Origin: Verrucomicrobiota bacterium
GTDB taxonomy: Bacteria > Verrucomicrobiota > Verrucomicrobiia > JADLBR01
Length of the DNA: 38,446 nt
Direction of reading: 5' to 3'
Assembly: GCA_029560585.1 (NCBI GenBank)
Contig: JAKQKQ010000237.1
Coordinates: forward strand, 1-38,446
Below are positions 1 to 37,950 of this stretch, piece after piece (the first letter of the stretch is position 1; each line of letters opens with the position of its first letter). The notes beneath the pieces are model-generated. The model did not search any database and was not told where the DNA came from. It worked only from the letters and a program-made list of their open reading frames with translations. The position numbers were made by a program, and so were the translations under genes.

Positions 1-1
1 T

Positions 2-15594: not shown

Positions 15595-16421
15595 GGCGCA
15601 CCCCCGGTCCACGCTGAACACTCGTCGCGGTACTGGCACCAGCCGCACTGCATGCCGGGCGACGGGTTGAACCTGCCCTCGGCGATGCCGTTGACGGCGG
15701 CATCGAGCATCGCGACCGCCCGGTCTTTCCTTGCGTCGTTGGGGGGCGGCACCGAGACGCGGACCACCTGGGGCGATTTGGTCTTCACCAGATGGACTAG
15801 CTCCATCCGGGGCGGCGTCTCGCCCGTGGCGGCCTCCAGCAGCAGCGCGTAGGCCACCAGCTGCAATTCCGCGTCGAACGCGGCCTGATCGGGATCGGGG
15901 CGGCTGGATGCGGTCTTGAAGTCCACGACTTTCAGGTCGTGGCACACCAGATCGATCGTCCCGCAGAGCGGCACGCCGAGACCGGGCACCATTTCTTCAA
16001 GCGTCACCTCGACGCCCCGCGGTCGCTCTTTCGGCATCTCGCCGCTGTCCATGTAGGCGGCCAGCAGCCGCAGGCCGTCCTTCTTCGCCTTGTCGCGGTC
16101 CTCGGTCCCGTCGAAGGCCACCGGGCCCTCGTCGGCCTCCAGCGCGTCGAACGCGCTGGCATACGCCCTCTCGACGGCCGCGGGCGAGGTGTCCCCGCCG
16201 CGCCAGAGCGCCGCGTGCAGGTGCCTGAGCCCGGCGTGGACCGCCTTGCCCAGGTGCAGCGCCGCGGCCACCGGCCTGGCGATGCAGGCCACGCGCTCGA
16301 AGTAGAAGCGCAGCCCGCACGCCAGGTAGCCGCGTGCCGCGGTCGCCGAGATGTGCGCCGGCAATCCGCCATTGCCCGTCGTGGTGCCGGCCGGCGGCGC
16401 CAATGTCGAGGGGGCGATCAT
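15591..16421 (-). CDS. Cas4/RecB-like PD-(D/E)XK nuclease with Fe-S cysteines
   Basis: A 276-aa protein. The RecB-family nuclease motifs appear in order: ISATAARGYLACGLRFYFERV (N-terminal cysteine C35), LGKAVHAGL (His62), GTIDLV (D157), VVDFKTAS (D167, K169) and ELQLVAYALL (Q187, Y191). The C-terminal CGWCQYRDEC (C259, C262, C268) with C35 makes the four-cysteine iron-sulfur cluster pattern of Cas4 and AddB-type nucleases. No cas1/cas2 or CRISPR array is present, so this is a stand-alone exonuclease of a mobile element. The start at 16421 overlaps the upstream stop by 4 bp, which suggests tight coupling with that gene. Confidence 0.82.
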   Translation of the reverse strand: MIAPSTLAPPAGTTTGNGGLPAHISATAARGYLACGLRFYFERVACIARPVAAALHLGKAVHAGLRHLHAALWRGGDTSPAAVERAYASAFDALEADEGPVAFDGTEDRDKAKKDGLRLLAAYMDSGEMPKERPRGVEVTLEEMVPGLGVPLCGTIDLVCHDLKVVDFKTASSRPDPDQAAFDAELQLVAYALLLEAATGETPPRMELVHLVKTKSPQVVRVSVPPPNDARKDRAVAMLDAAVNGIAEGRFNPSPGMQCGWCQYRDECSAWTGGAP

Positions 16422-16918
16422 GCCGCCCCCCTCGCATAGGCGTTGCGCCGGGGACGACGGTTGCCGTTGGAGCGTCCGCCGTTGCCGCCGTGTTTCTCCA
16501 GCAGCTCGTCGATGAGACCACTGGCCTCCAGCTTGCCCAGTTCCCGGACGCGCTTGTTGAAACGCTCCCGGGCCAGGGCCTCCACATCGGCCGGTTGTAG
16601 GTGGTGCTCGTCGACCAGCTTGAGGATGAGATCCCGCTGCCTGTCGCTGCACTTCCACGGGGCCTCGGTCGGCTCCTGCCCGTCCGTCTCGCCGTTGCCG
16701 CCCTCGCCGTTGAGCCCGTAGCCGTGGGGCGGGACGAATCCCGTCGCCACGATCTGCGAGTCCACAGACTGCTGGAGCAGCCGGTAGAGCCTTTGGGACT
16801 CCCCGGCCGCGTCGGCCACGTTCGCGATCTCGCATTCGACCGAGACGGCGAACTGATGACTGCTGTATGCGGGCAGCCCTAGGCGCTTGCTGTAATTCGC
16901 GATCAGCTTCACTGCCAT
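16418..16918 (-). CDS. Hypothetical protein, possible recombination partner of the nuclease
   Basis: A 166-aa protein, first gene of the operon. The N-terminal part (MAVKLIANYSKRLGLPAYSS, to about residue 65) is compact and beta-like. After a Gly/Asn/Glu-rich linker there is a helical segment beginning CSDRQRDLILKLVDEHHL and ending ASGLIDELLEKHG. This resembles the short 'x-S-x-x-Q-x-x-L-I ... S-x-L-I-x-x-L' helical module seen at the C-terminus of many phage recombination or ssDNA-handling proteins. The tail is basic (RSNGNRRPRRN). An AAGGAGAA site fixes the start at 16918. Coupling to a RecB/Cas4-like nuclease suggests a DNA-processing pair; that is inference. Confidence 0.65.
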   Translation of the reverse strand: MAVKLIANYSKRLGLPAYSSHQFAVSVECEIANVADAAGESQRLYRLLQQSVDSQIVATGFVPPHGYGLNGEGGNGETDGQEPTEAPWKCSDRQRDLILKLVDEHHLQPADVEALARERFNKRVRELGKLEASGLIDELLEKHGGNGGRSNGNRRPRRNAYARGAA

Positions 16919-17242
16919 GATGGTTCTCCTTCCATATTGCTTGTTGATGTTTGCCGCGGGCAAGAACGGCGCGGGCCCGGCCCGCCACGAAGGCAGGCCG
17001 GGGCCGTGATGCCGTCATCCGCGGGGTGATTGAGAGGGACCGATGAGGTCCTCCTCGCACCTTTATATAACCTGTACTGGGGCGCTGTTGCGCCTAGAGG
17101 TGGGGGGTGCTGCAGCAGGGGGACAAGTATTTGATGGTGCGCCCCCAGCAATCATTTCGAGTTGTCTGGGGCTCTCAATCGATGCTAGGGATGGACAGCA
17201 AGGGCGCCTTCGGACGCACTTCGTTTTACCGAAAGGATAAGG
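16919..17242. promoter_or_regulatory. Divergent intergenic region with leader hairpins
   Basis: 324 bp between the minus-strand recombination operon and the BRCT gene. Near the minus-strand gene are two small perfect hairpins: TTGCC/GGCAA at 16951-16963 and GCGGGC/GCCCGC at 16971-16985. An AT-rich box TATATAA lies at 17064-17070 in otherwise GC-rich DNA, a possible -10 for either strand. No convincing -35 partner was found. No gene is seen. Confidence 0.4.
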
Positions 17243-18223: not shown

Positions 18224-20479
18224 TCACTTCCCAGAGGTGTGCGGCGTATCGCCTGCCGCCTCGCGCGCGCCATCCACGTCTAGGACCTCGGCCGCGAAGG
18301 CTTCGCGCAACAGGGAGTCGGGGACGTACGGGTCGAATCGGTCTCGCGCGGGCTCGTCGGCCAACTCGGCGAGGCGGGCGGCGTCGAAGGTCCCGGTGGC
18401 CACCCTTCGGCGGTGCTCCTCGAAATCCTCCGCCGAGATCTTTTTGTACTGCAGGCGGAGATCATCCCGATCGACGTCGATCTCGTCGGCCTTGGCGCAG
18501 AGTTCCAGCGTCAGCAACGCCCGGCCCCCGCGCCAGGGGAACCACTGGATGAACGAGGTGCCCGAGAGCACATCGCTCGAGCCGAGGCCGGATCGGGCGA
18601 AGTTACCCCGGGCCGTGGCCAGCAGATCACAGCCGCTCTTTCCCAGATATGGGGGGATGCCGGAGTCCGCCAGCACCTGGCGCATGCGGGCCGCCACGAC
18701 GGGATGCATGAAGCCGACACCCCCACTGAACTTGGGTTGCTTCCATCCTTTTCCGGGAACAACGCCGATCCGCCGCGTCGAATGGTCGATCCAAAGAACC
18801 TTCCATCGTCTTCCCCCGAGCAAAAGAAATTCGCCCTGTCCCGGGATGGAGTCCTCCGGAAGGAGACCGATGGGCTGGCCGTCGCACTCGACCCGGTACT
18901 CTATCCGCCCCGCGAAGGCGGCATAAAAATCGTAGGACTCGACAATGCGTTCGCCGCCGGGCGCGAGGATCAGCTCGCCGGTAGGGACCTGCTCGATCAG
19001 GCCAGCCGACGCGATGCCCCTGAGCAGCGATGCGAACCTCGGCCGGTCGATGAGCCGGAACGCGCCGCGGTGGCAGAGGACATCGTAGATGTGATCAGCC
19101 GCGGCCCCGCCCGTCTGGCGAAGTAGGCTCAGGATCTGGTGCACGCACGTGCTGAAGTGGAAGCGCGGCGCCAACGGTGGCTCCAGCCAGCCCTCGAGCA
19201 TGAGATCCACCAGGGCCACGGCCCGAACGAGGCGCGGGTAGAGCCGGTCGGTCAGTGTCGACGACTCATTGGGCAGACGGTCGAGCGTGTAGAGGCGGAG
19301 GATTCGGGCCTCGCCCTCCTTCCGTCCAGAACGGCCGAGGCGCTGCACGAGCGAGGCGACAGACCAGGTTGGCCCCACCTGACCGATGGCGCGCACCGAG
19401 CCGATATCGATGCCCATCTCCAGCGTGCTGGTGCAGATCGCTGTGACCGGTTTGCCGGACTTCAGTTCGGCCTCGGCGTCCTCCCGCAATTCACGGCTGA
19501 GCGACCCGTGGTGCAAGAGGAACGGATTCCTGGGCCAAGATTCCCGCTCGGAGATCTGGCGCAGCTTGTCGCCAAGCAGCTCGACCTGCCGCCGACTATT
19601 GCAGAAAACCAGGTTCGTCTCATCGCGAAAGCGCGATGCGATGTCCGAGGCGATCTCGCCAAGCCCATCTGGCGTCGGTGTGTGGCCGGCATTGGCCGCA
19701 GCGCCAGGTCCGATCGGGGAGGGCTGCGCAGCGACAGTGTCCACTTCCCCGTCCCCGTCGCCATCGTTTGGATCCGAGCCCTCGAGATGGGCGCGGACGC
19801 CCACCTTGAGATCCCTCCCTTCTCCCTCGGCCCGGATCACGCGGACGCGCCCAGGATCGTCCGGGCGCAGGAACTGGCGCGCCGGCGCGAAATCCCCGAT
19901 GGTGGCGGACAGGCCCAGCCTGCGCGGCGTGGCTCCCGAGATTATCTCCAGGCGCGCCAGCAAGCTGCGCAGGTGCATGCCGCGGACGTCGTCGAGAAAC
20001 GCGTGCAACTCGTCTATCACCACGAACCTCAGCCGCGAATAGACGCGCGCGAGATGTTCGCCGTAGTTGACGAATTGGCTCTCGAGGGATTCCGGGGTGA
20101 TGAGCAGCACGCCGCTCGGGTGCCGCCGCAACTTGGCCTTCTGGGCGGCCCCGACGTCGCCGTGCCAGCGGTGCACCGGGATGTCGGCGCTCTCGCAGAG
20201 GTCCTCCAGCCGCCGGAATTGGTCGTTGATCAGCGCCTTGAGGGGGCTGACGTACAGCGCCCCGACCGATCCCCCCGGATCACCGACCAGGAGCGATAGG
20301 ATCGGGAGGAACGCGGCCTCGGTCTTCCCGCCCGAGGTGGCCGCGGCGAGGATGATGTCCCCGTCGCCATCCAGCACCGCGCCGATGGCTTCGACCTGCA
20401 GGGGCCACAGCTCGTTCCACCGGAGGTCCCAGATGGCCTCTTGGATCTTCCGGTCGAGCCTAGAGAAAGCCTCGCTCAT
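18224..20479 (-). CDS. sngC: Shango helicase SngC: Lhr-like SF2 DNA helicase
   Basis: A 751-aa superfamily 2 helicase. Motifs visible: I (ATSGGKT, 47-53), II (IDELHAF, DELH at 156-159), III (LSATIGD, 190-196), a HHGSLSRE segment (323-330), V (TSTLEMGIDIGSV, 350-362) and VI (QRLGRSGR, 379-386). The TSTLEMGIDIG form is characteristic of the Lhr-type clade. The C-terminal half (about 400-751) holds a winged-helix-like and Lhr-like extension. The start at 20479 lies 11 bp after the ATPase stop; the open frame extends upstream only as antisense or offset reading of that gene. In Shango systems (TerB protein, ATPase, helicase) the helicase is required for phage defence. The match to Shango rests on domain content and order. 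Confidence 0.85.
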   Translation of the reverse strand: MSEAFSRLDRKIQEAIWDLRWNELWPLQVEAIGAVLDGDGDIILAAATSGGKTEAAFLPILSLLVGDPGGSVGALYVSPLKALINDQFRRLEDLCESADIPVHRWHGDVGAAQKAKLRRHPSGVLLITPESLESQFVNYGEHLARVYSRLRFVVIDELHAFLDDVRGMHLRSLLARLEIISGATPRRLGLSATIGDFAPARQFLRPDDPGRVRVIRAEGEGRDLKVGVRAHLEGSDPNDGDGDGEVDTVAAQPSPIGPGAAANAGHTPTPDGLGEIASDIASRFRDETNLVFCNSRRQVELLGDKLRQISERESWPRNPFLLHHGSLSRELREDAEAELKSGKPVTAICTSTLEMGIDIGSVRAIGQVGPTWSVASLVQRLGRSGRKEGEARILRLYTLDRLPNESSTLTDRLYPRLVRAVALVDLMLEGWLEPPLAPRFHFSTCVHQILSLLRQTGGAAADHIYDVLCHRGAFRLIDRPRFASLLRGIASAGLIEQVPTGELILAPGGERIVESYDFYAAFAGRIEYRVECDGQPIGLLPEDSIPGQGEFLLLGGRRWKVLWIDHSTRRIGVVPGKGWKQPKFSGGVGFMHPVVAARMRQVLADSGIPPYLGKSGCDLLATARGNFARSGLGSSDVLSGTSFIQWFPWRGGRALLTLELCAKADEIDVDRDDLRLQYKKISAEDFEEHRRRVATGTFDAARLAELADEPARDRFDPYVPDSLLREAFAAEVLDVDGAREAAGDTPHTSGK

Positions 20480-20490
20480 GCGCCCCGGCG

Positions 20491-21840
20491 TTACAGCTTG
20501 AAGGTCGCCAGGTCGCCATCCTCTTCGTCCGGGGCCGGTGCGGCCCCCGAGGCGAGTTCCTCCTCCACCGATGCGGGGGCGGCGGGCTTCTGGAACACGT
20601 CCCCGCCAAGCAGGTCCCGCCAGCCGCGCCCGGGATTCTGTTCCAGGAGGTTCAGGAGGCCGATGAAGGACCGCACCACGTCGCGCGGCGTCCGGAAAAA
20701 CTCCGCCCCCAATGTCTCGTTCGCGCGCTGCAGCACCGCGGCGACCGCCTCGTCTGGCACGAGGACCTTTGCCGGGTCGCCGTGGGCGTGGACCAGCGCG
20801 ATGTTCTTGAGGAGCACGAACAGGTCCTCCGGGGTCAGCGGCTGAAGCCGCACCATCGGACCCGAGAGATCCACCAGCCCCCCGGCCCTGGCCAGGGCGT
20901 TCTCCGCGAGGCGGCTGCGGAGCGCCTCGTAGCTGAAGAGGCCGCGTCGCCGGTCCTCGAGGCACTCGTCGGTGCCGGCCAGCACGAAGCCGAGGCCGAT
21001 CGCCGTGCCCTGCAGGCAATCGTTGAGGAGGCTCAGCAGTGCCTCGTAGTTGGCCTGGCGCGCCCTGGAGCTCGGGAGCCGGTGCGAGAGCACCACCATC
21101 TCGTCGAGGTTCACCAGCAGGCCGCCGAAACCCGCCTTCCTGACGAAGGCCGCCATGAGCCTGAGGCTGCCGTAGAGGGACTCGTCATCGATGATGCGCC
21201 TCACGCCCAGGTCGGCTTTCGCGTCCGTCTTGGTGGTGTACTCCGCGCGCAGCCAGCGGAGCGCGGCGGCCTGCTTTGCCTCGTCCCCGGCGACGTGTGC
21301 CCTGTAGAACGCACGCACGACCTCCGCGAACTCGAATCCCCCGACGTGTGTTTGGAGATCGCGGAGCTGTTCGGCTATCCGTCCCTCGACATCGCCGACC
21401 GAGCCCCCGGCGCCCATGACCTCGTGCTGCAGGCCCGAGACCCAGCCGGCCAAGATCGAGGGCAGCGCGCCCCCGTCGGGCTGAGTCCGGGTGGCGAGGT
21501 TGGCCATCAGCTCCGCGTAGAGGGCCCGCGCCTGGCCGCCCGTCGCGCAGAGGCGGCGCTCCATGGTGAAATCCGCCTGGGCCACCACCAGCTTCTTCTG
21601 GAAGGCGACGTTTCTGACGAGATTGAGGAAGAAACTCTTGCCGCTGCCAAATCTCCCTACGACGATGCGGAACGCCGCGCCGCTGTCGGTGATGCGCTCG
21701 ATGTCCGACAGCATCGCCGAGACCTCGGCCTTCCGGCCCACCTGTATCAGGTGCAGGCCCTGTTTGGGGACTAGGCCCGCTTGGAGCGATAGCAGGATGG
21801 CGTCGCGCTCGCGGCGCTTCATTGAAATGCGTGTGCTCAT
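20491..21840 (-). CDS. sngB: Shango ATPase SngB (BrxD/DUF2791-like)
   Basis: A 449-aa P-loop ATPase of the DUF2791/BrxD type. Walker A is VGRFGSGKS (61-69) and Walker B is LLVNLDEMVVL (D246, E247). Segments typical of the family include RRIIDDESLYGSLRLMAAFVRKAGF, FVLAGTDECLEDRRRGLFSYEALRSRL and FFRTPRDVVRSFIGLLN. The C-terminal 50 residues are an acidic, proline/alanine-rich tail. The start at 21840 is set by AGGAG with a 5-nt gap. BrxD proteins work with a helicase in BREX type 2; here the ATPase sits between a TerB protein and an Lhr-like helicase, as in Shango. Spacing to both neighbours is 11 bp, so a single transcript is likely. Confidence 0.85.
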   Translation of the reverse strand: MSTRISMKRRERDAILLSLQAGLVPKQGLHLIQVGRKAEVSAMLSDIERITDSGAAFRIVVGRFGSGKSFFLNLVRNVAFQKKLVVAQADFTMERRLCATGGQARALYAELMANLATRTQPDGGALPSILAGWVSGLQHEVMGAGGSVGDVEGRIAEQLRDLQTHVGGFEFAEVVRAFYRAHVAGDEAKQAAALRWLRAEYTTKTDAKADLGVRRIIDDESLYGSLRLMAAFVRKAGFGGLLVNLDEMVVLSHRLPSSRARQANYEALLSLLNDCLQGTAIGLGFVLAGTDECLEDRRRGLFSYEALRSRLAENALARAGGLVDLSGPMVRLQPLTPEDLFVLLKNIALVHAHGDPAKVLVPDEAVAAVLQRANETLGAEFFRTPRDVVRSFIGLLNLLEQNPGRGWRDLLGGDVFQKPAAPASVEEELASGAAPAPDEEDGDLATFKL

Positions 21841-21851
21841 ATTCTCCTCTG

Positions 21852-24206
21852 TCAGTTGGATGAGCCCGCCCCCGCCATCACCGGCAGCAGGGACCGGAAC
21901 ACCCGGACGTTTTCTCCCCTCTCCAGCAGGAAGTCGCCGAAGTGCTCGTCGGACCACGCGTTGACGGCATCCAGGACGTCGTCCGGCAACAGGTGCTGCC
22001 TCTTGCAGAGTCCCTCGAAATCATCGAGGTCGATCTCGTCGTGGGCAACGAGCGTCGTGACGACCGGCCGGTACCGCTCAGCGAGGCCCTCGATCCATGG
22101 CGCGTCGATGGGCGCCTGCGCTGCGCCCGGCGTCGCATGCTCTTTGGATTTGCTCTCGACCTTGACCTCCGCTGACCCCTCATCGGCCATGACCTCCGAC
22201 AGCATGGCGATGACCTGCCTCGTCTCCTCCGTGAGGGCGCGGATGCGTTCGCTGTCGAGCGAGAGCACCGCCCCGGCGGCCGCGGGCCTAGGCGGGATCC
22301 GTTCGCCTTTCGCGCCCTTGCCGGCGGTCGCCACGGTGACTTCGCGGAGCGATCCATCGCCCTCCAGCAGCGAATCCACCGCATCGGGCGGTAGCCCGAA
22401 CGCTCTTGCGATCCGTCGCAGGAGCTTGATCTCGGGGAGACTGATTTCCCGGTCGGCGGCGGCGATGTGCGCCAGCGACCGCAGCACCTGCTCCCGATGC
22501 TCGGGCGAGATCAGCTTCGCCAGCTGGGGAAGGCAGCGCACGGCGACGTTGGTGTCCCTGCGGAGGGCGGCGGTGGCGTCGCGGACGCGCTCCCAGTCGG
22601 CCTCCCCGGGGAGGTCGGCTTTGACGAGGGTCTCGAAAGTGGCCAACTCCTCGTCCTCGATGACGCCGTCGGCGGCCGCCAGCATCACGGCCAGATGCAG
22701 CAGGCGGATCACGCCGGCCAAGTGCCCCGGCGCACCGTCGTCCGAATCGGTCGGGCGAAGCGCCACCTCCTGCGACCATGCCAGGGGCAATCCGCTCTGC
22801 CGCGGATCGGGGGCCATACGCCACCCCAGCTGTCGGGCCAGCTCGGCCACCTGTTTGGACTGCGCCAGGGTCAGGCGTGCCCTCTCATCGACGCCCGCCA
22901 TCGCCGCGATCTGGCCGGAGGGCAGAAAGGCGAGATCCCCTTCCCGGGGCGCGGAGCCGAGCAACCCATCGAAGGCGTCGCGGAGCGGGTGGGCCTCGCC
23001 CGCCCGCAGCTCCGGCGGGAGCGCCTGCCACGTCGCGATCTTGGCCGCATCGCCAACTTTCTTTGAACCCAGGGCCCGGCTGTAGCCCGCGAGATCGTCG
23101 ATGCAGCGATTCCAGATCTCCGGGAGCGCCCGGAACTGCCGCCGAAGGCCCAGGACATTGGGTATCCGCTCGTGCAGGGCGCGGGCCGCAGCACTCTCTC
23201 GGCAGGCGGAGAGCAGCGCACCGCTGGCGGGCCGGTACTCGACGGTCGCCGGCTGCTTGGCCGCCGCGAGCGGCATGCCGCCCGGGGCGATCTCCTCAAA
23301 TCGCTGCCGGAACAGTTCCCAGAACTTCTCGCGCGTTCGGGCAACGACCGCGCTCTTGCGGCTGTCCTCATCGATGAGCGCGAGCCGGTAGGCCACCGTC
23401 CAATCCATGACCTCGCCGCGCTGGTGGAGATTGCCCAGCACAAACCGGAGGGAGTCCTCGTCCGGCCGATCCCCGTCGAGCTCGAGCAGCTGCGGCCAGA
23501 ATGCCCTGTAGGACTCCTGCCCCAGCCTCCATCCGGAAAAATGCAGAAGCTGCAGGCAGTAGTTCTGGAGCGACACAGACCGATGCGCCGGCCCGTAGAG
23601 CTGCAGGAGGCGCAGCACCTCGCCCATCAGAGTCGGCTGAAGGTCGCCGTCCAGCAGCAGGCGACGCTCGATGCCGTAGAAGAACAGGAAGACATAGCCC
23701 AGTTCCCGGGCCGCCGGGTCGGCGTCGGATCGTCCGGAGGCCAGCCACTCCAGATAGGTTCGCCGCTGGGCGGGTGTGATCCCCAGAAAACTCGGGTAAT
23801 ACCCCAGTCCCACAGCGGGATCTTCCGCGACGGCGTCAATCGGCTGGGTCAGGTCGAGCGCCGAGGGTTCCCCCGGCCAGGGCAGTTCCCCGGTCGAGAC
23901 GTAGACCATCCCATCGGGGATCGTGAGCCCATCGAGGGTCAGGGGCTGGCCCTGGGGATACCAGACGAGTTCCGCGCACCGCTTGCGGGCGGACGCAGGC
24001 CGGGGGGGGCGCATTTCCGGCGATTCGAAATGAGCGGGACATCTCATATGGGAGTGTCGAGGGGGGATGATGACCTGATCCGCTCCACGGGAGGCACGAA
24101 ATAGTCCACCGACCAGATAAACAAGAGCAAACCCCACAAAGGCTGCAAGCCCGCCGCCAATGGGCCAGAGTACCGCCGCGAACACCAGCGCCAAGATCCA
24201 CCGCAC
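21852..24206 (-). CDS. sngA: Shango TerB-domain protein SngA, membrane-anchored
   Basis: A 784-aa protein. An N-terminal hydrophobic stretch (about 1-37) predicts one or two membrane helices. A TerB-N-like domain follows (about 100-330: LVWYPQGQPLTLDGLTIPDGMVYVSTG, GYYPSFLGITPAQRRTYLEWL, GYVFLFFYGIERRLL). A TerB domain lies at about 510-610 (AVMLAAADGVIEDEELATFE, LAHIAAADREISLPEIKLLRRIA) and a TerB-C domain at about 650-780. The start is GTG at 24206; a strong AAGGAGG lies inside the 3' end of the channel gene, one base separates that stop from this start, and coupling is expected. TerB proteins are associated with membrane complexes and phage or tellurite stress. Role here: the first canonical Shango component, probably anchoring the ATPase and helicase at the membrane. 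Confidence 0.83.
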   Translation of the reverse strand: MRWILALVFAAVLWPIGGGLAAFVGFALVYLVGGLFRASRGADQVIIPPRHSHMRCPAHFESPEMRPPRPASARKRCAELVWYPQGQPLTLDGLTIPDGMVYVSTGELPWPGEPSALDLTQPIDAVAEDPAVGLGYYPSFLGITPAQRRTYLEWLASGRSDADPAARELGYVFLFFYGIERRLLLDGDLQPTLMGEVLRLLQLYGPAHRSVSLQNYCLQLLHFSGWRLGQESYRAFWPQLLELDGDRPDEDSLRFVLGNLHQRGEVMDWTVAYRLALIDEDSRKSAVVARTREKFWELFRQRFEEIAPGGMPLAAAKQPATVEYRPASGALLSACRESAAARALHERIPNVLGLRRQFRALPEIWNRCIDDLAGYSRALGSKKVGDAAKIATWQALPPELRAGEAHPLRDAFDGLLGSAPREGDLAFLPSGQIAAMAGVDERARLTLAQSKQVAELARQLGWRMAPDPRQSGLPLAWSQEVALRPTDSDDGAPGHLAGVIRLLHLAVMLAAADGVIEDEELATFETLVKADLPGEADWERVRDATAALRRDTNVAVRCLPQLAKLISPEHREQVLRSLAHIAAADREISLPEIKLLRRIARAFGLPPDAVDSLLEGDGSLREVTVATAGKGAKGERIPPRPAAAGAVLSLDSERIRALTEETRQVIAMLSEVMADEGSAEVKVESKSKEHATPGAAQAPIDAPWIEGLAERYRPVVTTLVAHDEIDLDDFEGLCKRQHLLPDDVLDAVNAWSDEHFGDFLLERGENVRVFRSLLPVMAGAGSSN

Positions 24207-29822: not shown

Positions 29823-30641
29823 TCACAGATTCTTGGCGTCAGTGGGGACGGGGCCGAGTTCACCCGTTGGCGCGATGCCGGTTGGCCGGGTCGGGTCGCG
29901 GCGCGCCGCCATTGCGGCATCTCTCTGGATGTAGTAGTTGATTTCGGCCTTCTCCGCCTCGGTCGGCTCGGGTCGGAGGCGGAAGCGTTCCGGTGGTTCG
30001 GGGGAGCGTTGGCCGACGAGATGCCTGCAGGCCCCGAGAGCCAGGAACCGATAATAATCGCGGTGGTGCAGCGGGCCGCCCATGAAATCGACCATGGCCC
30101 GGTTGAGCCGATGCAGGGGCACATGGTCCAACGGCGGCATCTGGGTCTCGAAGCTCGGCAGCGGCAGGATGTTCCCGACCGGTTCCAGTTCGGGGAGCCT
30201 GTAGGAGGGGAACGCCTTATTGAGGTACATTTCCCACAGCAGGCCGTCCCGGAAGGCGCGCTCCAGCGCGCGCGCGGTCGCCACCGCCACCACGACCAGC
30301 GGCACGTGGCCCCGCGGCAGGTGGGGCTCGTGGACCGATTCCCAGGTGAAATCGCCGGGCAGCAGGCCCACCGCCTCCCCGGGCCCCAGCGTCCGGTGCC
30401 TGTCGCCGGAGCCGATCAGGACCGTCCCGGCGAGGCCGATCAGGACCAGTGGCACCCTCGCCGAGACGCAGATGATCGGGCAGTCCCACTCGGGGGGCAG
30501 CAGCACGGGGCAGGAGAAGGACCCGTGGCCCAGGGAATCGCGGATCCGGTGGCGGCGCGGCAGGCCGGAGGGGATGCGGAGGCACCGGCCCATGAAACGA
30601 AAGGGATCTGGGATGGGGGGGAACTTGGCGGAATCGCTCAT
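29823..30641 (-). CDS. Hypothetical protein of the replication operon
   Basis: A 272-aa protein. The middle part (about 48-115) is beta-rich with a cupin-like run (VLIGLAGTVLIGSGDRHRTLGPGEAVGLLPGDF). The second half is helical with several His/Pro-rich turns (LDHVPLHRLNRAMVDFMGGPLHHRDYYRFLALG). No catalytic motif is evident. The start overlaps the stop of the DUF3987-like gene by 4 bp (30638-30641), so co-translation is likely. Confidence 0.6.
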   Translation of the reverse strand: MSDSAKFPPIPDPFRFMGRCLRIPSGLPRRHRIRDSLGHGSFSCPVLLPPEWDCPIICVSARVPLVLIGLAGTVLIGSGDRHRTLGPGEAVGLLPGDFTWESVHEPHLPRGHVPLVVVAVATARALERAFRDGLLWEMYLNKAFPSYRLPELEPVGNILPLPSFETQMPPLDHVPLHRLNRAMVDFMGGPLHHRDYYRFLALGACRHLVGQRSPEPPERFRLRPEPTEAEKAEINYYIQRDAAMAARRDPTRPTGIAPTGELGPVPTDAKNL

Positions 30642-32620
30642 GGGGCTTGCGCTGACGCGCTGACGCGCTGACGCCCCGGGTTGGGGACCGTTGCCACGAG
30701 CCTGCCAGCGTCCTCTGTGACGAGGCCCTCGCGCATGGCGGCGCCGAGGATCGGCTCAAGCTCGGCGGTCCGCTGGCTGTGGTAGGTACGGTAGAGATCT
30801 CGCCGCGAGCACGGGCCCCGCAGTCGAAGTTTCGCCACCATGACGTCGACCTCCGCGATAACGGGCTGGCGCCCGAGGTCGGCGGGGAACTCGCCGAGGG
30901 TGGCGAAGTGCGCGTCCGAGGCGGCCCGCGCGATTTCCACCGCCATCGCATGGGTATCGTCGGCCACCACATCCCCTGTCTCGACGCCCGCCAACGTGCC
31001 AACATGGAGGCCGAGCGCGATCCGCAGAGCAGAGCGGGGCAGCTCGCGGAGGTGGGCGCCGGCCCGCGGGTCGGTCGCCCCCCTCGAAGCCGACAGGCAT
31101 TCCCGCTCGAACTCGCTGTGCCGGGCGGCGGCTTTCGGACAGAGGCGGTGTGTCCTACGGACATCATACAATCGCACGCGGAACAGGTTCTTCTGCACGT
31201 ACCCACCCCAGAGGCCGAGGTTCTCTGCCGTGCCGGGCGACGATGGCGCGGCTGGGGCTGCAGATTCGGCGGCGCTGGGGGTCACCGCAAAGAGCCGAGC
31301 GGCCAGCGGCCCGCCCGTCATCGCGGGATGGCCGAGGATCGCGCCAAGGTCTCCGGCCCCGCAGGCCCAAAGGAGCGAGACGGCGGCCCCCACGTGCTGG
31401 TCGCCCCCGAGCGCGAAGGCCGGCGAGCCGGCCCCGCAGCCCTCGAGAAAGCGCAGCACCAAATCCAAGCTGGGCGCCGGGGTCGAGAGGAACGATGCGA
31501 CCGCATCGCCCGAGGGCAGCAGGTCGACCGCATGGCCGTCGAAGGTGGCCTCCGCCCAGCGCCGCAGGAATCCCGAGGAGAGGCCGCCGGTCATGATGAC
31601 GGGCCGCAGCGCGAAGAAGGTCTCGGTCTCGCGGCACACCAGGGCGCCGAGTTCATGGAGCACCCCCTTCCGGTCTTCCCGAAGGCGAAAATCACCGAAG
31701 CCGCGCAGAAAGTCGATGCCCGCCACGTAGGGGATGCGGCCCGCCTTCATCGAGTCATCGATCCCCTTGAGGGTCTTGTCCATGTTGGCGAGCCGGATCT
31801 CGCAGGCCTTCCGCGAGTCGCGGCGTTCCGCCAGTTCCGCGAGGATCTGGCGCCGGCTCATCCCCCTGTGGAGAAAGATGATCTCTGCGACGCGGCGCAG
31901 CATCGGCGCCAGCAGGGATCTGGCGGCCGCAAGCAGGGCGCCGTCCGCAAGCAAGAGATCGGCCGTGGGATATAGGAAGCCCTCGCCGCCGGGGCACTCC
32001 AGCCGGTGGGCCGGGCCGACCGCGGCACCCTGCGTCGCGAGGGCGATCAGGATCGCTTGGAGATCGGGACAGCCGGCGATCTCGCGCGCCGCGCTGGCGC
32101 CCGCGAGCAGTAAGGGCGGCAGCCGCCCCACCAGGGTGGCGGGCGCGGCGAGTGGCGCGGGCTCAGGGGGAGCCGTGGCGACGTGCTTTGCCGCCACGGC
32201 GCCCGATTGTACATCAGCGATGGTGTCCGCCGGATCCCCCGCTGGCCCCGAAGGTCCGGCGCCAGGGGCCTTGGGTGAGACCGGGGCACCACATGGATGG
32301 CCAGAGGCCGAGATCCCCCCGGCCGCGGGGACCATCTGGGGCCGGGCTGGTGCCCGGCCCCAGATGCCCGGATCCGGCGCGCGGGTCACCTGCGCTACGC
32401 TCCGGTGACCCGCGCACGCAGAGCCGTGATCCCGGGCGGTGGTCCCCGCGGCGAGGGGTTTTCGGCCCGGCGTCCCGCGCCGATGAAGCGGGGATGGCGG
32501 ACCATCGGCCCAGCGGCTGATCCGCCCGGGATGCGCTGCCGCCGTCGGCCCGGGGTTGCCCGGCGCGCCCAGACGGCCCCCCGGATGCGCCGTGGTTGGG
32601 CGCTGGTTCCCCGCGCTCAT
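30638..32620 (-). CDS. DUF3987-like protein with long Pro/Ala/Gly-rich N-terminus
   Basis: A 660-aa protein. Residues about 1-150 are low-complexity (Ala, Pro, Gly, Arg) and contain DNA inverted repeats. From about 155 the protein is orderly: CPDLQAILIALATQGAAVG, a helical middle, VIMTGGLSSGFLRRWAEATFDG, and GAGDLGAILGHPAMTGGPLAARLFAVTP. The last segment matches the 'G-x-LAARFL-x-x-x-P' region of DUF3987 (plasmid/phage primase- or helicase-associated) proteins. No P-loop is visible, unlike standard DUF3987 members, so the ATPase may be lost. The start at 32620 overlaps the Gp37/Gp68 gene stop by 4 bp, but a start further in, after the low-complexity part, is possible. Confidence 0.5.
   Translation of the reverse strand: MSAGNQRPTTAHPGGRLGAPGNPGPTAAAHPGRISRWADGPPSPLHRRGTPGRKPLAAGTTARDHGSACAGHRSVAQVTRAPDPGIWGRAPARPQMVPAAGGISASGHPCGAPVSPKAPGAGPSGPAGDPADTIADVQSGAVAAKHVATAPPEPAPLAAPATLVGRLPPLLLAGASAAREIAGCPDLQAILIALATQGAAVGPAHRLECPGGEGFLYPTADLLLADGALLAAARSLLAPMLRRVAEIIFLHRGMSRRQILAELAERRDSRKACEIRLANMDKTLKGIDDSMKAGRIPYVAGIDFLRGFGDFRLREDRKGVLHELGALVCRETETFFALRPVIMTGGLSSGFLRRWAEATFDGHAVDLLPSGDAVASFLSTPAPSLDLVLRFLEGCGAGSPAFALGGDQHVGAAVSLLWACGAGDLGAILGHPAMTGGPLAARLFAVTPSAAESAAPAAPSSPGTAENLGLWGGYVQKNLFRVRLYDVRRTHRLCPKAAARHSEFERECLSASRGATDPRAGAHLRELPRSALRIALGLHVGTLAGVETGDVVADDTHAMAVEIARAASDAHFATLGEFPADLGRQPVIAEVDVMVAKLRLRGPCSRRDLYRTYHSQRTAELEPILGAAMREGLVTEDAGRLVATVPNPGRQRVSASAQAP
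32333..32366. repeat. Perfect 15-bp inverted repeat inside the DUF3987-like gene
   Basis: CATCTGGGGCCGGGC (32333-32347) and its exact complement GCCCGGCCCCAGATG (32352-32366) are separated by a 4-nt loop (TGGT). This is a REP-like hairpin inside coding sequence, in the low-complexity N-terminal region. Confidence 0.8.
32379..32415. repeat. Perfect 12-bp inverted repeat inside the DUF3987-like gene
   Basis: GCGCGGGTCACC (32379-32390) and GGTGACCCGCGC (32404-32415) form a stem with a 13-nt loop, only 12 bp beyond the previous hairpin. Both hairpins lie in the same low-complexity stretch. Confidence 0.8.
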
Positions 32621-33738
32621 CGCGTGACCCTCGCGAGGGCCCGCGGCATCTCGCGCACCCTCAGGTCCTCGGGCCACTCGCCCCAATCGCCCCCGTGCTT
32701 GTCGCGCAGTCTCAACTCGAGGCCATCCTCCACGGGGCGTCGGCCCAGCTGCTTGCAGAAGAACGCGACGCCTCTGGCGCGGCATTGGTCCCGCAGCTGC
32801 CTGGCCCACGCGAGGTCGAAGGGCCGTGCGCTGGTGCCCGACTCGCCGCCCACGATCACCCAATCGATCCCCCTGAGGTCGATCTTGACCGGTTCGATGA
32901 GCGGCTCGACGCTCAGCGCGCGCATCGCGGCGGGCACCCTCCGCAGGTGGTCCACCGCCCTGGCCATCCGCCCGTCGATGACGCTGGCCATCGCCACGAG
33001 GTTGTTGGGCCACGCCGCGCCCTGTTCTGAGTCAAGCCACCGCGCGAACTCCGCCATGCGGGCTGGACGCTTGGTCAGCCAGAGCCAGATGTGTCTGTCA
33101 CCGGGTGGCGTGCGGACCACGCCGACGATCTCGGACTCCAGGTAGTCGAACGGCACCGCCGCGCTCAGCGCGTCGCCCATGTCGGACACGAACACGAGCC
33201 GGGGCAGGCCGTCGAGCCAGGGCTTGCCGGGCACGACGTTCTCCTGGCCCGCGTTCGTCCTCCTCGTGGTGGCGGCCCGGGGCTTCCCGGTGAGATCGCA
33301 TTTTCGCGCCATCTTGGCCATGCGGCCCGGGAAGCACGTCACCTGCTCGAAGGTGGGCGCGTAGCCCTTGTTGGTTCGCTTGGTGGGCTGCGTCGGGTCC
33401 TTGCCCTTGTGCAGGTGCAACAGGCCCGCGTAGCAGCGAAACCCTGCCTCGATTGCCGCCGCGATGGCGCCGGTGTCTTTGCTGCCGCCGCGGCCCGTGG
33501 CACCGCCGAGTTCCCCGGCGATGAAATGCCGGCCGTGATAGACGGCAGAGGCTGGTAGGCCGTCGACCGCGCTGACCGCCAGCTCCCGGGCCTGGCGCCA
33601 TGAGATGCCCTGGTTTTTCAGCTCGCCCGCCAGCGCCGATATCAGCGCCGCGCTGGTTGGCCAGAGCGGGCAGCCCTGACATCCCATCACAGGGTTGATG
33701 GTGCTGTCGCACCACTGGATTTTTGTGCGGTCAGACAT
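32617..33738 (-). CDS. Phage Gp37/Gp68 family protein (DUF5131)
   Basis: A 373-aa member of the Gp37/Gp68 family. Hallmarks: KIQWCDSTINPVMGCQGCPLW near the N-terminus with a cysteine cluster, a middle CFPGRMAKMARKCDLTGKPR, FVSDMGDAL, WLTKRPARM, LSVEPLIEP and WVIVGGESGTSARPFDLAWARQLRDQC. The pattern recalls a radical-SAM-like or TIM-barrel fold; the function is unknown, but members are frequent in phages and mobile elements. The start at 33738 has AAAGGAG 9 nt upstream; an ATG three codons earlier is too close to that site. It overlaps both neighbours by 4 to 8 bp. Confidence 0.88.
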   Translation of the reverse strand: MSDRTKIQWCDSTINPVMGCQGCPLWPTSAALISALAGELKNQGISWRQARELAVSAVDGLPASAVYHGRHFIAGELGGATGRGGSKDTGAIAAAIEAGFRCYAGLLHLHKGKDPTQPTKRTNKGYAPTFEQVTCFPGRMAKMARKCDLTGKPRAATTRRTNAGQENVVPGKPWLDGLPRLVFVSDMGDALSAAVPFDYLESEIVGVVRTPPGDRHIWLWLTKRPARMAEFARWLDSEQGAAWPNNLVAMASVIDGRMARAVDHLRRVPAAMRALSVEPLIEPVKIDLRGIDWVIVGGESGTSARPFDLAWARQLRDQCRARGVAFFCKQLGRRPVEDGLELRLRDKHGGDWGEWPEDLRVREMPRALARVTR

Positions 33739-34663
33739 GGTCGGCATCTCCTTTCGGACTTGGGCGGAATCGTGCGCCCGACTGCCGGGCGGCCGGGGCG
33801 GCGGCGCCGGGCGACGACGGTTCTCGCCCGGAGACGAACAGCACGTCCGCGACCTTGGAGGCGAACATCTCAAGGACCACCCTCATGGCCCTCCTGATGA
33901 ACTCGGTGCGATTGGTGTCGATCAGGTCGTCGCCGGTCAGATCCAGCATGTCGTAGACCCGGCGCGGAACAATATCCGGGCGCCCGCGGAGTTCCCGGTG
34001 GGCTCGCTCCGCGAGAATCCCGCAGTCGACCAGGTACGGCTCAAGGGCCGAGGGGCTGTGCCTCGCATCCAAGTAGGCAAGCCTCGGCCAAGCGGCGCTC
34101 GACTGGAAGCCCGGCTCAACGTCGACGCCGCGGATCAGCGCCTCCACCTCGTCGGGCTGCGTCTTTGCCCACCGGAGGACATCGATGAAATCGACGATGG
34201 CCCGGGCCGCGTCGTGTTGGACGGATCGGTCCGCGTTGCTCAGCTCGTGGCCGCGCTCGGAGAGATACCGGAGGATCCGCCCGTCGAACTCCGCGGTGCG
34301 CCCGGCCAGCTCCCGCAGGTCGCGCGGCATGTCTTCCGGATCGAATCCGCACGCCTTGGGGCGCTGCGTGGGTTCCGGGGGGAAGCACGCCTCCGCCCTG
34401 ACTTGGTCGAGGATGCTCATCAACCCTGGGCCAACGAGCCCCGCGTCGAACTGACGCCGGAGCGTCTCCCACACGCCGGCGTCATCGCAGTCGCCGAACG
34501 CCGAGGTCGCCGCGTCGACGAATTCGCCCCAGCGCGGATCCTGCGACTCGCCGCGTTTGGCGGCGCGGTGACCGGGGGCGACGCGCGCGTCACCGGGTTG
34601 CCTGTTCCGGCCGTTCCGCGATCTGCGGGCGGCCCCTTCCTCAATTTTCGCTCCCATGCTCAT
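33731..34663 (-). CDS. Hypothetical protein of the replication operon
   Basis: A 310-aa, mostly helical protein with no family I recognise. Residues about 1-45 are low-complexity; from about 50 the sequence becomes orderly (EFVDAATSAFGDCDDAGVWETLRRQF). The ATG at 34663 overlaps the end of the rep-like gene by 23 bp and is preceded by GAGGGG. Its stop overlaps the Gp37/Gp68 start by 8 bp. Segments such as EFDGRILRYLSERGHELSNADRSVQHDAARAIVDFIDVLRWAKTQP suggest an alpha-solenoid-like build. Confidence 0.6.
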   Translation of the reverse strand: MSMGAKIEEGAARRSRNGRNRQPGDARVAPGHRAAKRGESQDPRWGEFVDAATSAFGDCDDAGVWETLRRQFDAGLVGPGLMSILDQVRAEACFPPEPTQRPKACGFDPEDMPRDLRELAGRTAEFDGRILRYLSERGHELSNADRSVQHDAARAIVDFIDVLRWAKTQPDEVEALIRGVDVEPGFQSSAAWPRLAYLDARHSPSALEPYLVDCGILAERAHRELRGRPDIVPRRVYDMLDLTGDDLIDTNRTEFIRRAMRVVLEMFASKVADVLFVSGREPSSPGAAAPAARQSGARFRPSPKGDADHV

Positions 34664-35765
34664 GACAGAGGCCCCTCCTCTCGATGGGCCATGCCCGTGG
34701 CGCCTCATGCGCCCGTGGCCTTGATCGCCCGCCGCGATGCGCGGCGGGCCGGCTTCGGCCGGGTCCGACTGGGTCGGCCGAAAGTGATGAAGTGGATTGC
34801 TGGCCCGGGATCGGCGCTGAACCCGCGTCGCGGAAGGCGGCGAGCCGCGGGAGAGCTGGGCCGATGCGGCGGACGTCGCGGCGCAGGCGCTCGAGGCGCT
34901 CGGGGGAGAACTCACCGTAGGCTACAGAGGCGAGGAGATAGTGCCACCGGGAGCCGAAGACGTACGCGGCCTGCTCCAGCTTCGACAGGCCCAGCCGGGC
35001 GGCGGCAGCGGCCAGCCGCTTCCGGTGCCCGGCGCTGCCCGGGTGGTTGAGAGCAAACTGGTTGGGCCGCGGGGGCCGGGGAGCACCACCGCTAAGCCCC
35101 CACATCCGATGGCGCGAGTCGGACTGCTGGCGGCGAGCCTGGAAGCCCCGATAGTTCTTGAGCAGGTAGGCGGCGATGGCGGCGGGCTCGGATCGCAGGG
35201 GGAAGACATCCGTGCGCCCGAAGCCGAGGGGCGCCGATATCCGGTCGAGCAGATCCCAGAACCCGCGGGTGACGGGGTTGACCGCAGCCCGCTGGGCCGC
35301 GAGGTCCCGTCCCGGGTGGGCATGTGGGACGGAGAAGTCGGCACCGACGCGGACGTCGTCGGGTAGGGAGACGAGCAGGTGGTAGTGGATGTCACCGCGG
35401 GCGGTCAGGCCGGCCACCCACAGGTAGTCGAGAGCCGGGACGCGCTTGCGCAGGGCGGTCAGCAGGGCGGACAGGCGGCGGTTGGAGGCGGCCAGATCGC
35501 GACTGGCCTCGACCAGGGTCAGGGTGACGAACAGGACGTGGTTGAGGCCGAAGCGGCGGAAGAACTCAGTGACGGCGAGGCCGAGGCGGACCACCGTCTT
35601 CGGTAGGGCCCGGGACGCAGGCAGCGGGAAGGTCGGGTCCGAGGCCGGGTCGGAGGGGTCGAGGACGGTGGAATTAAGTGGGACATCTGACAAGGTTGGC
35701 GGCGCCGGCGCGGGGCATGGTGCCCCGCCCGGTTCCCTGTCCGCCGCTGTCGCCACGGCGATCAA
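34641..35765 (-). CDS. HUH-family rolling-circle Rep-like protein
   Basis: A 374-aa protein. Motif 1-like FVTLTL (79-84) is followed by the HUH motif in RGDIHYHLLVS (H127, H129) and a catalytic-tyrosine-type motif AAYLLKNYRGF (Y200, K203, Y205). This order is that of rolling-circle replication initiators and relaxases, which nick one strand and stay covalently attached through tyrosine. The first 50 and last 60 residues are low-complexity. The start is TTG at 35765, overlapping the Xis-like stop, with AAAGGGG upstream; GTG at 35756 is the alternative. It indicates that the island is, or derives from, a replicating plasmid-like or phage-like element. Confidence 0.72.
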   Translation of the reverse strand: MIAVATAADREPGGAPCPAPAPPTLSDVPLNSTVLDPSDPASDPTFPLPASRALPKTVVRLGLAVTEFFRRFGLNHVLFVTLTLVEASRDLAASNRRLSALLTALRKRVPALDYLWVAGLTARGDIHYHLLVSLPDDVRVGADFSVPHAHPGRDLAAQRAAVNPVTRGFWDLLDRISAPLGFGRTDVFPLRSEPAAIAAYLLKNYRGFQARRQQSDSRHRMWGLSGGAPRPPRPNQFALNHPGSAGHRKRLAAAAARLGLSKLEQAAYVFGSRWHYLLASVAYGEFSPERLERLRRDVRRIGPALPRLAAFRDAGSAPIPGQQSTSSLSADPVGPGRSRPAAHRGGRSRPRAHEAPRAWPIERRGLCHEHGSEN

Positions 35766-36049
35766 GCGCTGCCCCTTTGACGGCGTCCCTTGGCCGGGAC
35801 TGCTGCGGCCTCGATACCTTCGAGGCTAAACCGCCACCTTCCACCGATCCGGACACCGCCGAAGCGGGCCGGGTTTCGATAGATCGTTTTGGGCGACAGG
35901 CTGTAGAACTGCGCCACGTCTCTAACCCCCCAGCAGCGCCAGTCCCTGGGTCGCTGCACCAGCAGTGGGTCAACCGCGATTCGCGCGGCCTCCCTCGTCT
36001 CTCGGCCACCGTCGATCTGCGTCGGCGGTGGAACTATTTCGATACTCAT
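35762..36049 (-). CDS. Excisionase-like HTH protein
   Basis: A 95-aa protein with a helix-turn-helix near the middle: WGVRDVAQFYSLSPKTIYRNPARFGGVRIGGRWRFSLEGIE. The 'GVxIGGRWRF' hairpin after the recognition helix is characteristic of MerR/excisionase-type wHTH proteins (Xis, AlpA-like). The ATG at 36049 lies about 8 nt beyond the predicted -10 box at 36057-36062, giving a very short leader. It is the first gene of the minus-strand operon and couples to the Rep-like gene by a 4-bp overlap. Role inferred: recombination directionality or control of the operon. Confidence 0.72.
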   Translation of the reverse strand: MSIEIVPPPTQIDGGRETREAARIAVDPLLVQRPRDWRCWGVRDVAQFYSLSPKTIYRNPARFGGVRIGGRWRFSLEGIEAAAVPAKGRRQRGSA

Positions 36050-36056
36050 CGCCGTC

Positions 36057-36126
36057 AAAATAGCCGTCGCAAGAAGTGTGTCAAGTGAGAGTGAAAAATA
36101 TACAATAGAAACCATAGTGGTGTTTC
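36057..36126. promoter_or_regulatory. Divergent promoters and candidate operator between xis-like and XRE genes
   Basis: On the minus strand TTGACA (36079-36084) and TATTTT (36057-36062) are 16 nt apart and would start transcription close to the ATG at 36049. On the plus strand TACAAT (36101-36106) with GTGTCA (36078-36083), 17 nt apart, could serve the XRE gene. An inverted repeat GAAAC/GTTTC (36108-36112 and 36122-36126, 9-nt spacer) is a candidate operator. Arrangement and AT-rich composition resemble a phage or plasmid control region. Confidence 0.5.
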
Positions 36127-36169
36127 ATACTAGACAGACTCAACCGGGTGAGCTAACAAAAGAGAAAAC

Positions 36170-36958
36170 ATGAAAGAGAAACCGAAGAAGGGGCGGGCGG
36201 CGCCAGCCAAAGTGGAGAAGGCGGAGCCGGGCGGGCCCGCGAGAATCGACTCGGTCGCAAGCCTGCGGAGGGCCCTGAACGTGAGTCAGGAGACGCTGGC
36301 GCGGGCGCTAGACGTGTCCAGGGGCCTGATTGCGAAAATCGAGGGCGGGGACGCCCCGGTGAGCCCAAAGCTTGCCCGGCGCGTCGCCAAGGTGTTTTCC
36401 GTGGAGGTGCCGACCGGCAAGAGCGGTGGTGCCCGGAAATCGGCCACTGTACCCGCATCGGTGAAAGGTGGAGGATCGGGGGAATGCGGGAAATCGTACG
36501 TGTCGGAGGCCGTGCGGCGGTTGCACGAGATCGTGCGGCGCACCGATGTGGGGATCAGTCTCAGCGGCCCCATTGGCGATGCTGAATGGGGGGTCGTGGG
36601 GGCGGTCCTTGGGGAGCTTCATCGGGCATTGCCGGATGCCAGGGGGTTCCAGGCGAGCTTCACGGTTGTCGAGCCCGAGGGCGCAACGCCTGGGACGGTG
36701 GGTAAGATGCTGATGCTTCGGCTCGGCAAGGCGGAGGGTTTGCAGATTCGTCCTTCTGAGGACTGTGAGGATGGGGACCTTGCGGTGGATGTTGGTGGCG
36801 GGTCGAAGGCGACGATCCACATTCATTGGCGGGAGCCGCATGTCGTAGGTCATCTGGTGTTCCCTCCTGGCCGCCCCCTCGGGCGCATCGAATTTGGAGA
36901 ACCTGTGCCCGAGGCCGTCTTGCGCAGTTTTGAGGAGGGCTCCAAGAGGCAAAAGTGA
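36170..36958 (+). CDS. XRE-family transcriptional regulator
   Basis: A 262-aa protein. A basic N-terminus (KEKPKKGRAAPAK) is followed by a Cro/cI-type helix-turn-helix (about 28-75: SLRRALNVSQETLARALDVSRGLIAKIEGG). The C-terminal 150 residues (about 108-255) are an uncharacterised domain, with SYVSEAVRRLHEIVRRTDVG and KATIHIHWREPHVVGHLVFPPG. It is transcribed away from the xis-rep operon, which it probably represses. The C-terminal domain may sense a ligand, but no peptidase motif (S24-type) is seen, so self-cleavage is unlikely. Confidence 0.82.
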   Translation: MKEKPKKGRAAPAKVEKAEPGGPARIDSVASLRRALNVSQETLARALDVSRGLIAKIEGGDAPVSPKLARRVAKVFSVEVPTGKSGGARKSATVPASVKGGGSGECGKSYVSEAVRRLHEIVRRTDVGISLSGPIGDAEWGVVGAVLGELHRALPDARGFQASFTVVEPEGATPGTVGKMLMLRLGKAEGLQIRPSEDCEDGDLAVDVGGGSKATIHIHWREPHVVGHLVFPPGRPLGRIEFGEPVPEAVLRSFEEGSKRQK

Positions 36959-37120
36959 TCGCTGGCATGCGGTTTCATCTGAACTTTCTTGGGAATGAAT
37001 CAAATGGGCGGGTGGGCTATCTCCACAACGCGAATGGGAATCAGCGGTTGGCAAACGATGACACCGCGACGTATTTCGTCGACCGCGACCAAACCGCGAC
37101 CAAACGCACAGAAAAGGAAG

Positions 37121-37194
37121 CGCACCCTGTAGGATTCGAACCTACGACCTTCTGATCCGTAGTCAGATGCTCTAATCCGCTGAGCTAAGGGTGC
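37121..37194 (-). tRNA. tRNA-Arg(ACG)
   Basis: A 74-nt cloverleaf on the minus strand: acceptor GCACCCT/AGGGTGC, D-stem GCTC/GAGC, anticodon stem TCTGA/TCAGA with loop CTACGGA (anticodon ACG), T-stem GTAGG/CCTAC with TTCGAAT loop, and discriminator G. CCA is not encoded. The 3' end (37121) faces the mobile-element genes, the usual geometry for an attachment site. A short direct repeat (ACCGCGACCAA, twice within 37081-37105) lies next to the 3' end. Confidence 0.95.
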
Positions 37195-37311: not shown

Positions 37312-37950
37312 ATGGGAATCGAGAGGACGATCACGTTGGCGAGTCGGAATGCCAAGAAGGCCGTGGAATTGGGTGCCCTGCTGGGGGAGGGGTGGAGCGT
37401 GCGAAGCCTGTCGGGATTACCACATGTGCCGGAGGTGGAAGAGGACGGAGCGACGTTTTTTGACAACGCGGTGAAGAAGGCCATCGAGGTGTCGCGGCAC
37501 GTGGGGGGGCTGGTTCTGGCGGACGATTCGGGGCTGGAGGTGGATGCGTTGGGGGGCGAGCCCGGGGTGCTATCCGCACGGTTCACGGGCAGGCACGGTG
37601 ACGACGCGGCAAACAATGTGTTGCTGTTGGATAAGTTGGCGGGGGTGGCATTGGCGGAGCGGGGGGCGCAGTTCCGCTGCGCGCTGGCCGTAGCGCGGCG
37701 CGGTGCGGTCCTTTTCACGTGCGAGGGCGTGTGCCGCGGGTGGATCGGTCTCGCGTGCCGCGGAGACCGCGGCTTCGGCTACGATCCGTTGTTTGTGCCC
37801 GAGTGGGAGGCGGCGGGGGCGGGCACGGGGCTGGAGCTCGGCAGAACGTTTGCGGAGATTTCTCCGGAGGAAAAGAATCAGCGGAGTCACCGGGCCCGGG
37901 CGATGCGGCAACTACAAGATCGATTGGCTGAAGTGGCTTCGGAGACGTGA
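37312..37950 (+). CDS. rdgB: RdgB/HAM1-type non-canonical purine NTP pyrophosphatase
   Basis: A 212-aa protein of the Ham1/RdgB family, which hydrolyses dITP, XTP and related non-canonical purine nucleotides to monophosphates to keep them out of DNA. Conserved segments: LASRNAKKAVELGALL near the N-terminus, EEDGATFFDNAVKKA, LVLADDSGLEVDALGGEPGVLSARF, a GFGYDPLFVP loop and the C-terminal EKNQRSHRARAM. Length is normal for the family. This is housekeeping DNA and marks the chromosomal side of the tRNA boundary. Confidence 0.93.
   Translation: MGIERTITLASRNAKKAVELGALLGEGWSVRSLSGLPHVPEVEEDGATFFDNAVKKAIEVSRHVGGLVLADDSGLEVDALGGEPGVLSARFTGRHGDDAANNVLLLDKLAGVALAERGAQFRCALAVARRGAVLFTCEGVCRGWIGLACRGDRGFGYDPLFVPEWEAAGAGTGLELGRTFAEISPEEKNQRSHRARAMRQLQDRLAEVASET

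Follow-up and report, generated by a model that had tools for sequence, protein, structure and literature searches.

The stretch of DNA described here, referred to as the window, takes in the whole of contig C183 (38,446 bp) from the 7.06-Mb, 336-contig genome assembly of a Verrucomicrobiota bacterium (GCA_029560585.1). It very probably spans the end nearest the tRNA, and the larger part of the body, of a site-specific integrative element at least 41 kb in length, with predicted excision by an integrase (Int) and excisionase (Xis) and predicted rolling-circle replication driven by a HUH-family Rep protein. The element is a tRNA-integrated genomic island, with a direct repeat of the 3' part of a tRNA gene, a tyrosine integrase located at one end, and an empty site in a relative. 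A guess drawn from a single contig has become an element whose two ends are both known, whose attP can be predicted base by base, and for which an empty site exists. This Rep also marks compact elements with exact boundaries, which occur at many different tRNA genes across the class. Coordinates are listed in Table 1.

The right end of the window contains rdgB and an intact tRNA-Arg(ACG) gene. Leftwards from the tRNA 3' end lie a forward-strand gene for an XRE-family regulator and then, all on the reverse strand, genes for an HTH_17 protein, Rep, a protein designated pA, Gp37/Gp68, a DUF3987-like protein, and a protein designated pB. The original prediction, made from the letters of the window, had placed an XRE regulator, an excisionase-like helix-turn-helix (HTH) protein, a HUH Rep and Gp37/Gp68 next to the 3' end of tRNA-Arg with rdgB beyond, and Pfam, PHROGs and ARAGORN bear this out, the HTH assignment being a weak one. 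It also held that the integrase must be further left or supplied in trans; none is encoded anywhere in the 38-kb window, and a tyrosine integrase with all of the R, H-x-x-R, H and Y boxes is located instead at the far end of the element, on contig C175. Beside it is the anticipated second copy of the tRNA 3' end, expected at 17-45 bp and found as an exact 48-bp copy.

The two att cores, one at each end of the island, match at 48/48 bp and repeat the 3' part of the tRNA in direct orientation. A 28-bp probe of the tRNA 3' end finds only two sites in the whole 7.06-Mb genome at up to three mismatches, one in the window and one at C175:3893-3920, and no third att copy is present between C175:4000 and 13300. 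The 5' half of the tRNA has no duplicate at the C175 att copy; ARAGORN calls a tRNA-like structure across the duplicated fragment, but the 5' part of that structure is unrelated sequence. Just inside the cores a 20-bp tandem repeat, GGTCGCGGTTTGGTCGCGGT, occurs in the same orientation at both ends, and this 20-mer has exactly two copies in the genome with up to two mismatches allowed. Its presence at both ends links the ends on C183 and C175 to one element, independently of the tRNA repeat. In the rejoined circle these repeats would lie on either side of the core, in the manner of arm-type sites around attP. At window:38230-38446, the right end of the contig, is a palindromic intergenic repeat that recurs next to the att copy on C175 (L009:2101-2280).

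The empty, uninterrupted site is carried by a genome of the same genus, G001 (contig C202), in which bioB, kinase/TPR and beta-lactamase-like genes directly adjoin tRNA-Arg(ACG)-rdgB. This is the comparison with genomes lacking the island that had been proposed at the outset: the homologues of these genes lie here at ~13.1-16.9 kb of C175, beyond the far att copy. As such, neighbours in G001 are split between C183 and C175, which places at least 37.1 + 3.9 = 41 kb between once-adjacent genes. The G001-side genes, and those at C175:3924-13063, were named from reading translations. That this is simply a conserved chromosomal neighbourhood of tRNA-Arg with no insertion can be given almost no credence, as nothing was found in its favour, other genes occupy the position beside tRNA-Arg-rdgB in G001, and the empty site there refutes it, with the homologues here lying past the att copy. 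The stretch from C183:1 to C175:1 is unassembled, and C183:1 could not be joined to another contig because that end (window 1-141) is a separate dispersed repeat, also present at the ends of C271 and C272. Of the earlier claim that the island carries everything to the left of the tRNA, the two ends and the empty site uphold the general form, and continuity through the unassembled part rests on topology.

Table 1. Features of the integrative element and its chromosomal flank. Positions are those of the window unless contig C175 is named.
Feature	Position	Strand	Evidence and remarks
rdgB (Ham1p_like), chromosomal flank, outside island	37312..37950	+	PF01725 E 1.2e-56; syntenic in G001
tRNA-Arg(ACG), intact, integration target	37120..37194	-	ARAGORN; same position beside rdgB in G001
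att core, tRNA side	37119..37166	-	48 bp identical to C175:3876-3923
Putative arm-type integrase site GGTCGCGGT-TT-GGTCGCGGT, 20 bp	37082..37101	-	17 bp inside core, tRNA side
Second copy of 20-bp arm repeat	C175:3773-3792		At integrase start, 83 bp from core
Tyrosine integrase, 387 aa	C175:2635-3798	-	PF00589 E 1e-11; start ~80 bp inside the 48-bp repeat
XRE-family regulator, probable repressor, divergent from xis-rep	36170..36958	+	HTH_3 PF01381 E 2.9e-8
HTH_17 protein, probable excisionase/AlpA-type factor, overlaps rep start	35762..36115	-	Weak: Pfam E 1.5e-4, PHROGs E 0.0047
HUH-family Rep, one catalytic Tyr	34641..35765	-	PF23343 REP_ORF2-G2P E 1.9e-8, above cut-off
Core protein pA, start uncertain	33731..34915	-	C217 homologue, tblastn 31%, E 4e-19
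Gp37/Gp68 (DUF5131)	32617..33873	-	PF07505 E 1.5e-48; 64% identical in C217
Remote DUF3987-like protein, C-terminal winged helix, start uncertain	30638..32620	-	Homologues in C217 and G277
Core protein pB	29823..30641	-	Next after DUF3987-like gene, likewise in C217 and G277
SngA of Shango (TerB domains)	21852..24206	-	PADLOC E 3.3e-52
SngB of Shango (BrxC/D-type ATPase)	20491..21957	-	PADLOC E 1e-157
SngC of Shango (DEAD helicase)	18224..21019	-	PADLOC E 6e-230
PD-(D/E)XK nuclease adjoining Shango	15591..17060	-	PF12705 E 9.6e-29
RadC-like protein	14172..14927	-	PF04002 E 2.7e-36
DUF932-like protein, below cut-off	13238..14062	-	PF06067 E 0.001

The HUH motif, the catalytic tyrosine and the PF23343 match identify the rep product as a predicted rolling-circle HUH Rep. 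Motif I (T81), motif II (H127-x-H129) and motif III (Y200) are invariant across 19 proteins, and HUH Reps and transposases are among the closest, weak, PDB matches found by Foldseek with an AlphaFold model (predicted local distance difference test score, pLDDT, 75). The nearest plasmid relatives are the Reps of 1.3-2.3 kb plasmids, at 29-35% identity, some of which are annotated as phasyl replicon protein Arp. The element resembles these small phasyl/Arp-type plasmids in its homologous REP_ORF2-G2P Rep and HUH motifs, but differs in its chromosomal integration at a tRNA with an integrase, its excisionase-like gene, and its large cargo.

The same genome contains a second element, on contig C217, in which tRNA-Gly(CCC) is followed by genes for an integrase, XRE, xis, Rep, pA, a DUF3987-like protein, pB and DUF5131. 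Two tandem TTCTGACTAT repeats overlap the start of its integrase, which mirrors the arrangement on C175 although the sequence differs; an att search at the tRNA-Gly found no exact partner copy. The XRE genes of the two elements are in matching places and their products group in a joint profile, and the HTH_17 proteins share 59% identity over 80 aa. There is no Pfam match to pA. In a more distant genome (G277; L071:1615-14014), genes for Int, a family-A DNA polymerase, Rep, a DUF3987-like protein and pB are found within ~13 kb, and a search for repeats at both ends of this element found no flanking repeat.

The prediction of a DUF3987-like gene held in part. Remote homologues do link the product to DUF3987, since more distant members of the same profile match it, with the link running via L095; Pfam, however, gives no hit of any kind for the window protein and no DUF3987 (PF13148) match for its nearest relatives, and the P-loop lysine is absent. 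DUF3987 domains have earlier been predicted to be mobile-element helicases (PMC5862659). With the P-loop lysine missing, a helicase or ATPase role is doubtful here, and the protein is best taken as a remote relative, probably ATPase-dead.

From this arrangement we propose that the XRE protein would repress the divergent xis-rep operon, and that upon derepression Int and the HTH_17 protein would recombine the two cores and excise a circle in which arm sites bracket attP. The one-tyrosine HUH Rep would then nick an origin and initiate rolling-circle replication of the circle, probably assisted by the DUF3987-like and other core proteins, and re-insertion would restore the tRNA. Int and Rep, which are near opposite ends of the inserted form both here and in compact relatives, would become neighbours in the circle, and the stretch between them would hold exchangeable cargo, here the Shango system.

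Several points weigh against this reading. Excision, replication and transfer are predictions from sequence. The gap from C183:1 to C175:1 is unassembled, with a dispersed repeat at C183:1-141, and C175 starts within a recombinase gene that has a near-identical copy elsewhere. A further 9 kb (C175:3924-13063; L016), containing sialidase/SGNH, sulfatase and GH95-like genes, is also absent from the G001 site; the history of the site is therefore more complex than a single insertion, and this segment either inserted there earlier or has been lost from G001. Support for the excisionase assignment is weak (HTH_17: Pfam E 1.5e-4, PHROGs E 0.0047), and none of the Foldseek matches to the Rep model has an E-value below 0.001. 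In an alignment the P-loop GK of the true DUF3987 protein L095 has no counterpart in the window protein, and the AlphaFold2 model of the latter has weak Foldseek likeness to MCM/RuvB, again with no E-value below 0.001. Two of these features, the DUF3987-like protein without its P-loop lysine and the second, unexplained 9-kb difference, would also suit a decayed genomic island that is integrated, immobile, and kept by virtue of its defence cargo. We consider such decay improbable, given that the Int, XRE, xis and Rep reading frames are open, the cores and arm repeats are perfectly preserved, and the HUH residues are under constraint across relatives.

Relatives of the Rep are present in 22 of 384 sampled genomes of the class, and 20 Rep loci in relatives were fetched and examined. 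A tyrosine integrase is nearby in 16 of the 20, and at 11 loci this integrase abuts a tRNA gene; at nine of these 11, an exact tRNA duplicate of 19-40 nt bounds an element of ~3.5-9 kb. Such a duplicate was found in 43 of 3300 random windows taken from the same loci as a control. The duplicated portion is the 3' part of the tRNA in six of the compact elements and the 5' half in three (L068, L075 and L082). Int is close to one end of the compact elements and, in most, Rep is close to the other. In some compact relatives a small open reading frame (ORF) upstream of Rep begins inside the att site, antisense to the tRNA (L064:10136-10486, L066:10246-10560, L081:4686-4916), and has a short motif, e.g. 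LIGSQIS, in common with the integrase C-terminus.

Several of these elements carry different defence modules, including BcnI-type restriction-modification (a MvaI/BcnI-family nuclease with a C5 methyltransferase and Vsr; L064), an AbiL-like RloB/AAA pair (L065), a PifA-like KAP NTPase (L066) and an Eco57I-type restriction system (L072), with Shango in the window element. They likely make up a family of integrative rolling-circle elements that is as yet undescribed. The wider proposition is of an undescribed lineage spanning the class, targeted to tRNAs and with no transfer machinery of its own, in which Int is at one end, a gpII/phasyl-type HUH Rep is at the other and interchangeable defence systems lie between; the window element would be a large branch of this lineage, bearing the DUF3987-like gene. 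Here we regard the case for and against as evenly balanced. No account of such a family was found in the open-access literature, which is weak evidence of novelty as only open-access papers were covered. If the proposition is true, these elements would act as defence-gene vehicles in a group of bacteria for whose mobile elements the open-access papers searched offer little description, and the absent transfer genes pose a testable question as to what carries them between cells.

Among the Pfam-scanned proteins of the ~41 kb on C183 and C175 there is no FtsK/TraB, relaxase, coupling protein or type IV secretion system (T4SS) family, and no virion or capsid genes were found in the assembled parts of the island. 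Since neither conjugation nor virion genes were found there, movement between cells probably depends on a helper, which could be a plasmid, an integrative and conjugative element (ICE) or a phage. It is possible, but on balance doubtful, that the element is itself mobilizable or conjugative, similar to integrative and mobilizable elements (IMEs), ICEs or actinomycete ICEs (AICEs), with Rep doubling as a relaxase, a mating apparatus of its own or of a helper, and conjugation genes perhaps sitting in the unassembled gap. HUH Reps and relaxases are related, AICEs combine Int/Xis with a replication initiator, and conjugative elements often carry cargo of the RadC and DUF932 types. Against this, the Pfam scan revealed no transfer family, and no conjugation genes were recognised in the ORF lists of the nine compact elements, for which a full profile scan was not made. 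The self-transfer genes characteristic of ICEs and AICEs, a relaxase with a T4SS or an FtsK-like Tra, did not turn up among the proteins scanned with Pfam from the assembled ~41 kb. AICEs of the pSAM2 type are alike in tRNA integration, Int/Xis and a replication initiator, whereas no FtsK-like Tra was found in the assembled parts here and the Rep belongs to a different family.

A phage satellite is a comparably tentative alternative. The element would then resemble phage-inducible chromosomal islands (PICIs) or phage-inducible chromosomal minimalist islands (PICMIs) in that a helper phage would induce and package it; XRE would be the master repressor, and Int, an AlpA-like HTH_17 protein, the DUF3987-like protein and Rep would form the excision-replication core. 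PICMIs have an integrase, a DUF3987 primase and an AlpA protein for which PF05930/PF12728 served as search profiles; they replicate by a rolling-circle mechanism and carry defence genes (PMC10803314). Defence cargo here likewise accompanies genes for an integrase, an HTH_17 protein and a distant DUF3987 relative. PICMIs are nevertheless recognised by Int, AlpA and a DUF3987 primase scoring above threshold, at fis, whereas the element described here is at a tRNA, is much larger at 41 kb or more, has a separate HUH Rep and a degenerate, remotely matching DUF3987 protein below threshold, and has no known helper. A tblastn search of 50,697 phage genomes and two IMG/VR pattern scans returned no relatives, and no packaging genes were recognised. 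Of the features that mark a filamentous phage (inovirus), a Zot-like ATPase and coat proteins alongside a gpII-type Rep, neither Pfam nor PHROGs recognised the ATPase or the coat proteins in the window, although small coat genes are easily missed.

Among known tRNA islands, the Islander type with tyrosine integrases (PMC4383910) likewise has an intact tRNA at one end, a displaced fragment at the other, an integrase at an end and an empty site in a relative; the element here differs in that it encodes a HUH rolling-circle Rep of its own and has a conserved core of xis and rep. The thaumarchaeal cryptic integrated element NitAQ6f-E2 (PMC6563490) has an integrase and a rolling-circle Rep without recognisable transfer genes. 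Compared by description, it is from another domain of life and is a single described case, in contrast to the recurrent lineage found here.

The cargo includes a Shango system that is complete by its gene content, with SngA, SngB and SngC adjacent. It is like known Shango in all three genes, in their adjacency and in its strong PADLOC matches, with no difference seen; here it is cargo, with a PD-(D/E)XK nuclease gene alongside. A cluster at window:140-13066 encodes a 1376-aa AAA protein, a trypsin-like protease, two FGE-sulfatase proteins and a 1374-aa CARDB protein, and may be a further conflict system; these far-left genes (AAA, protease, FGE-sulfatase) are placed within the island only by topology. 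At the opposite end, Gp37/Gp68 is weakly related to radical SAM mobile pair protein A (TIGR04471, below cut-off). ASCH-like and radical-SAM (rSAM_mob_pairB-like, below cut-off) genes lie beside the integrase, further inside the island (L016:703-2609), and together with the pairA-like DUF5131 gene they may be a radical SAM mobile pair with its members at opposite ends of the island. A cpYpsA protein of the SLOG family is also encoded inside the island (window:26177-26881, E 1.9e-52), with its true start probably further in.

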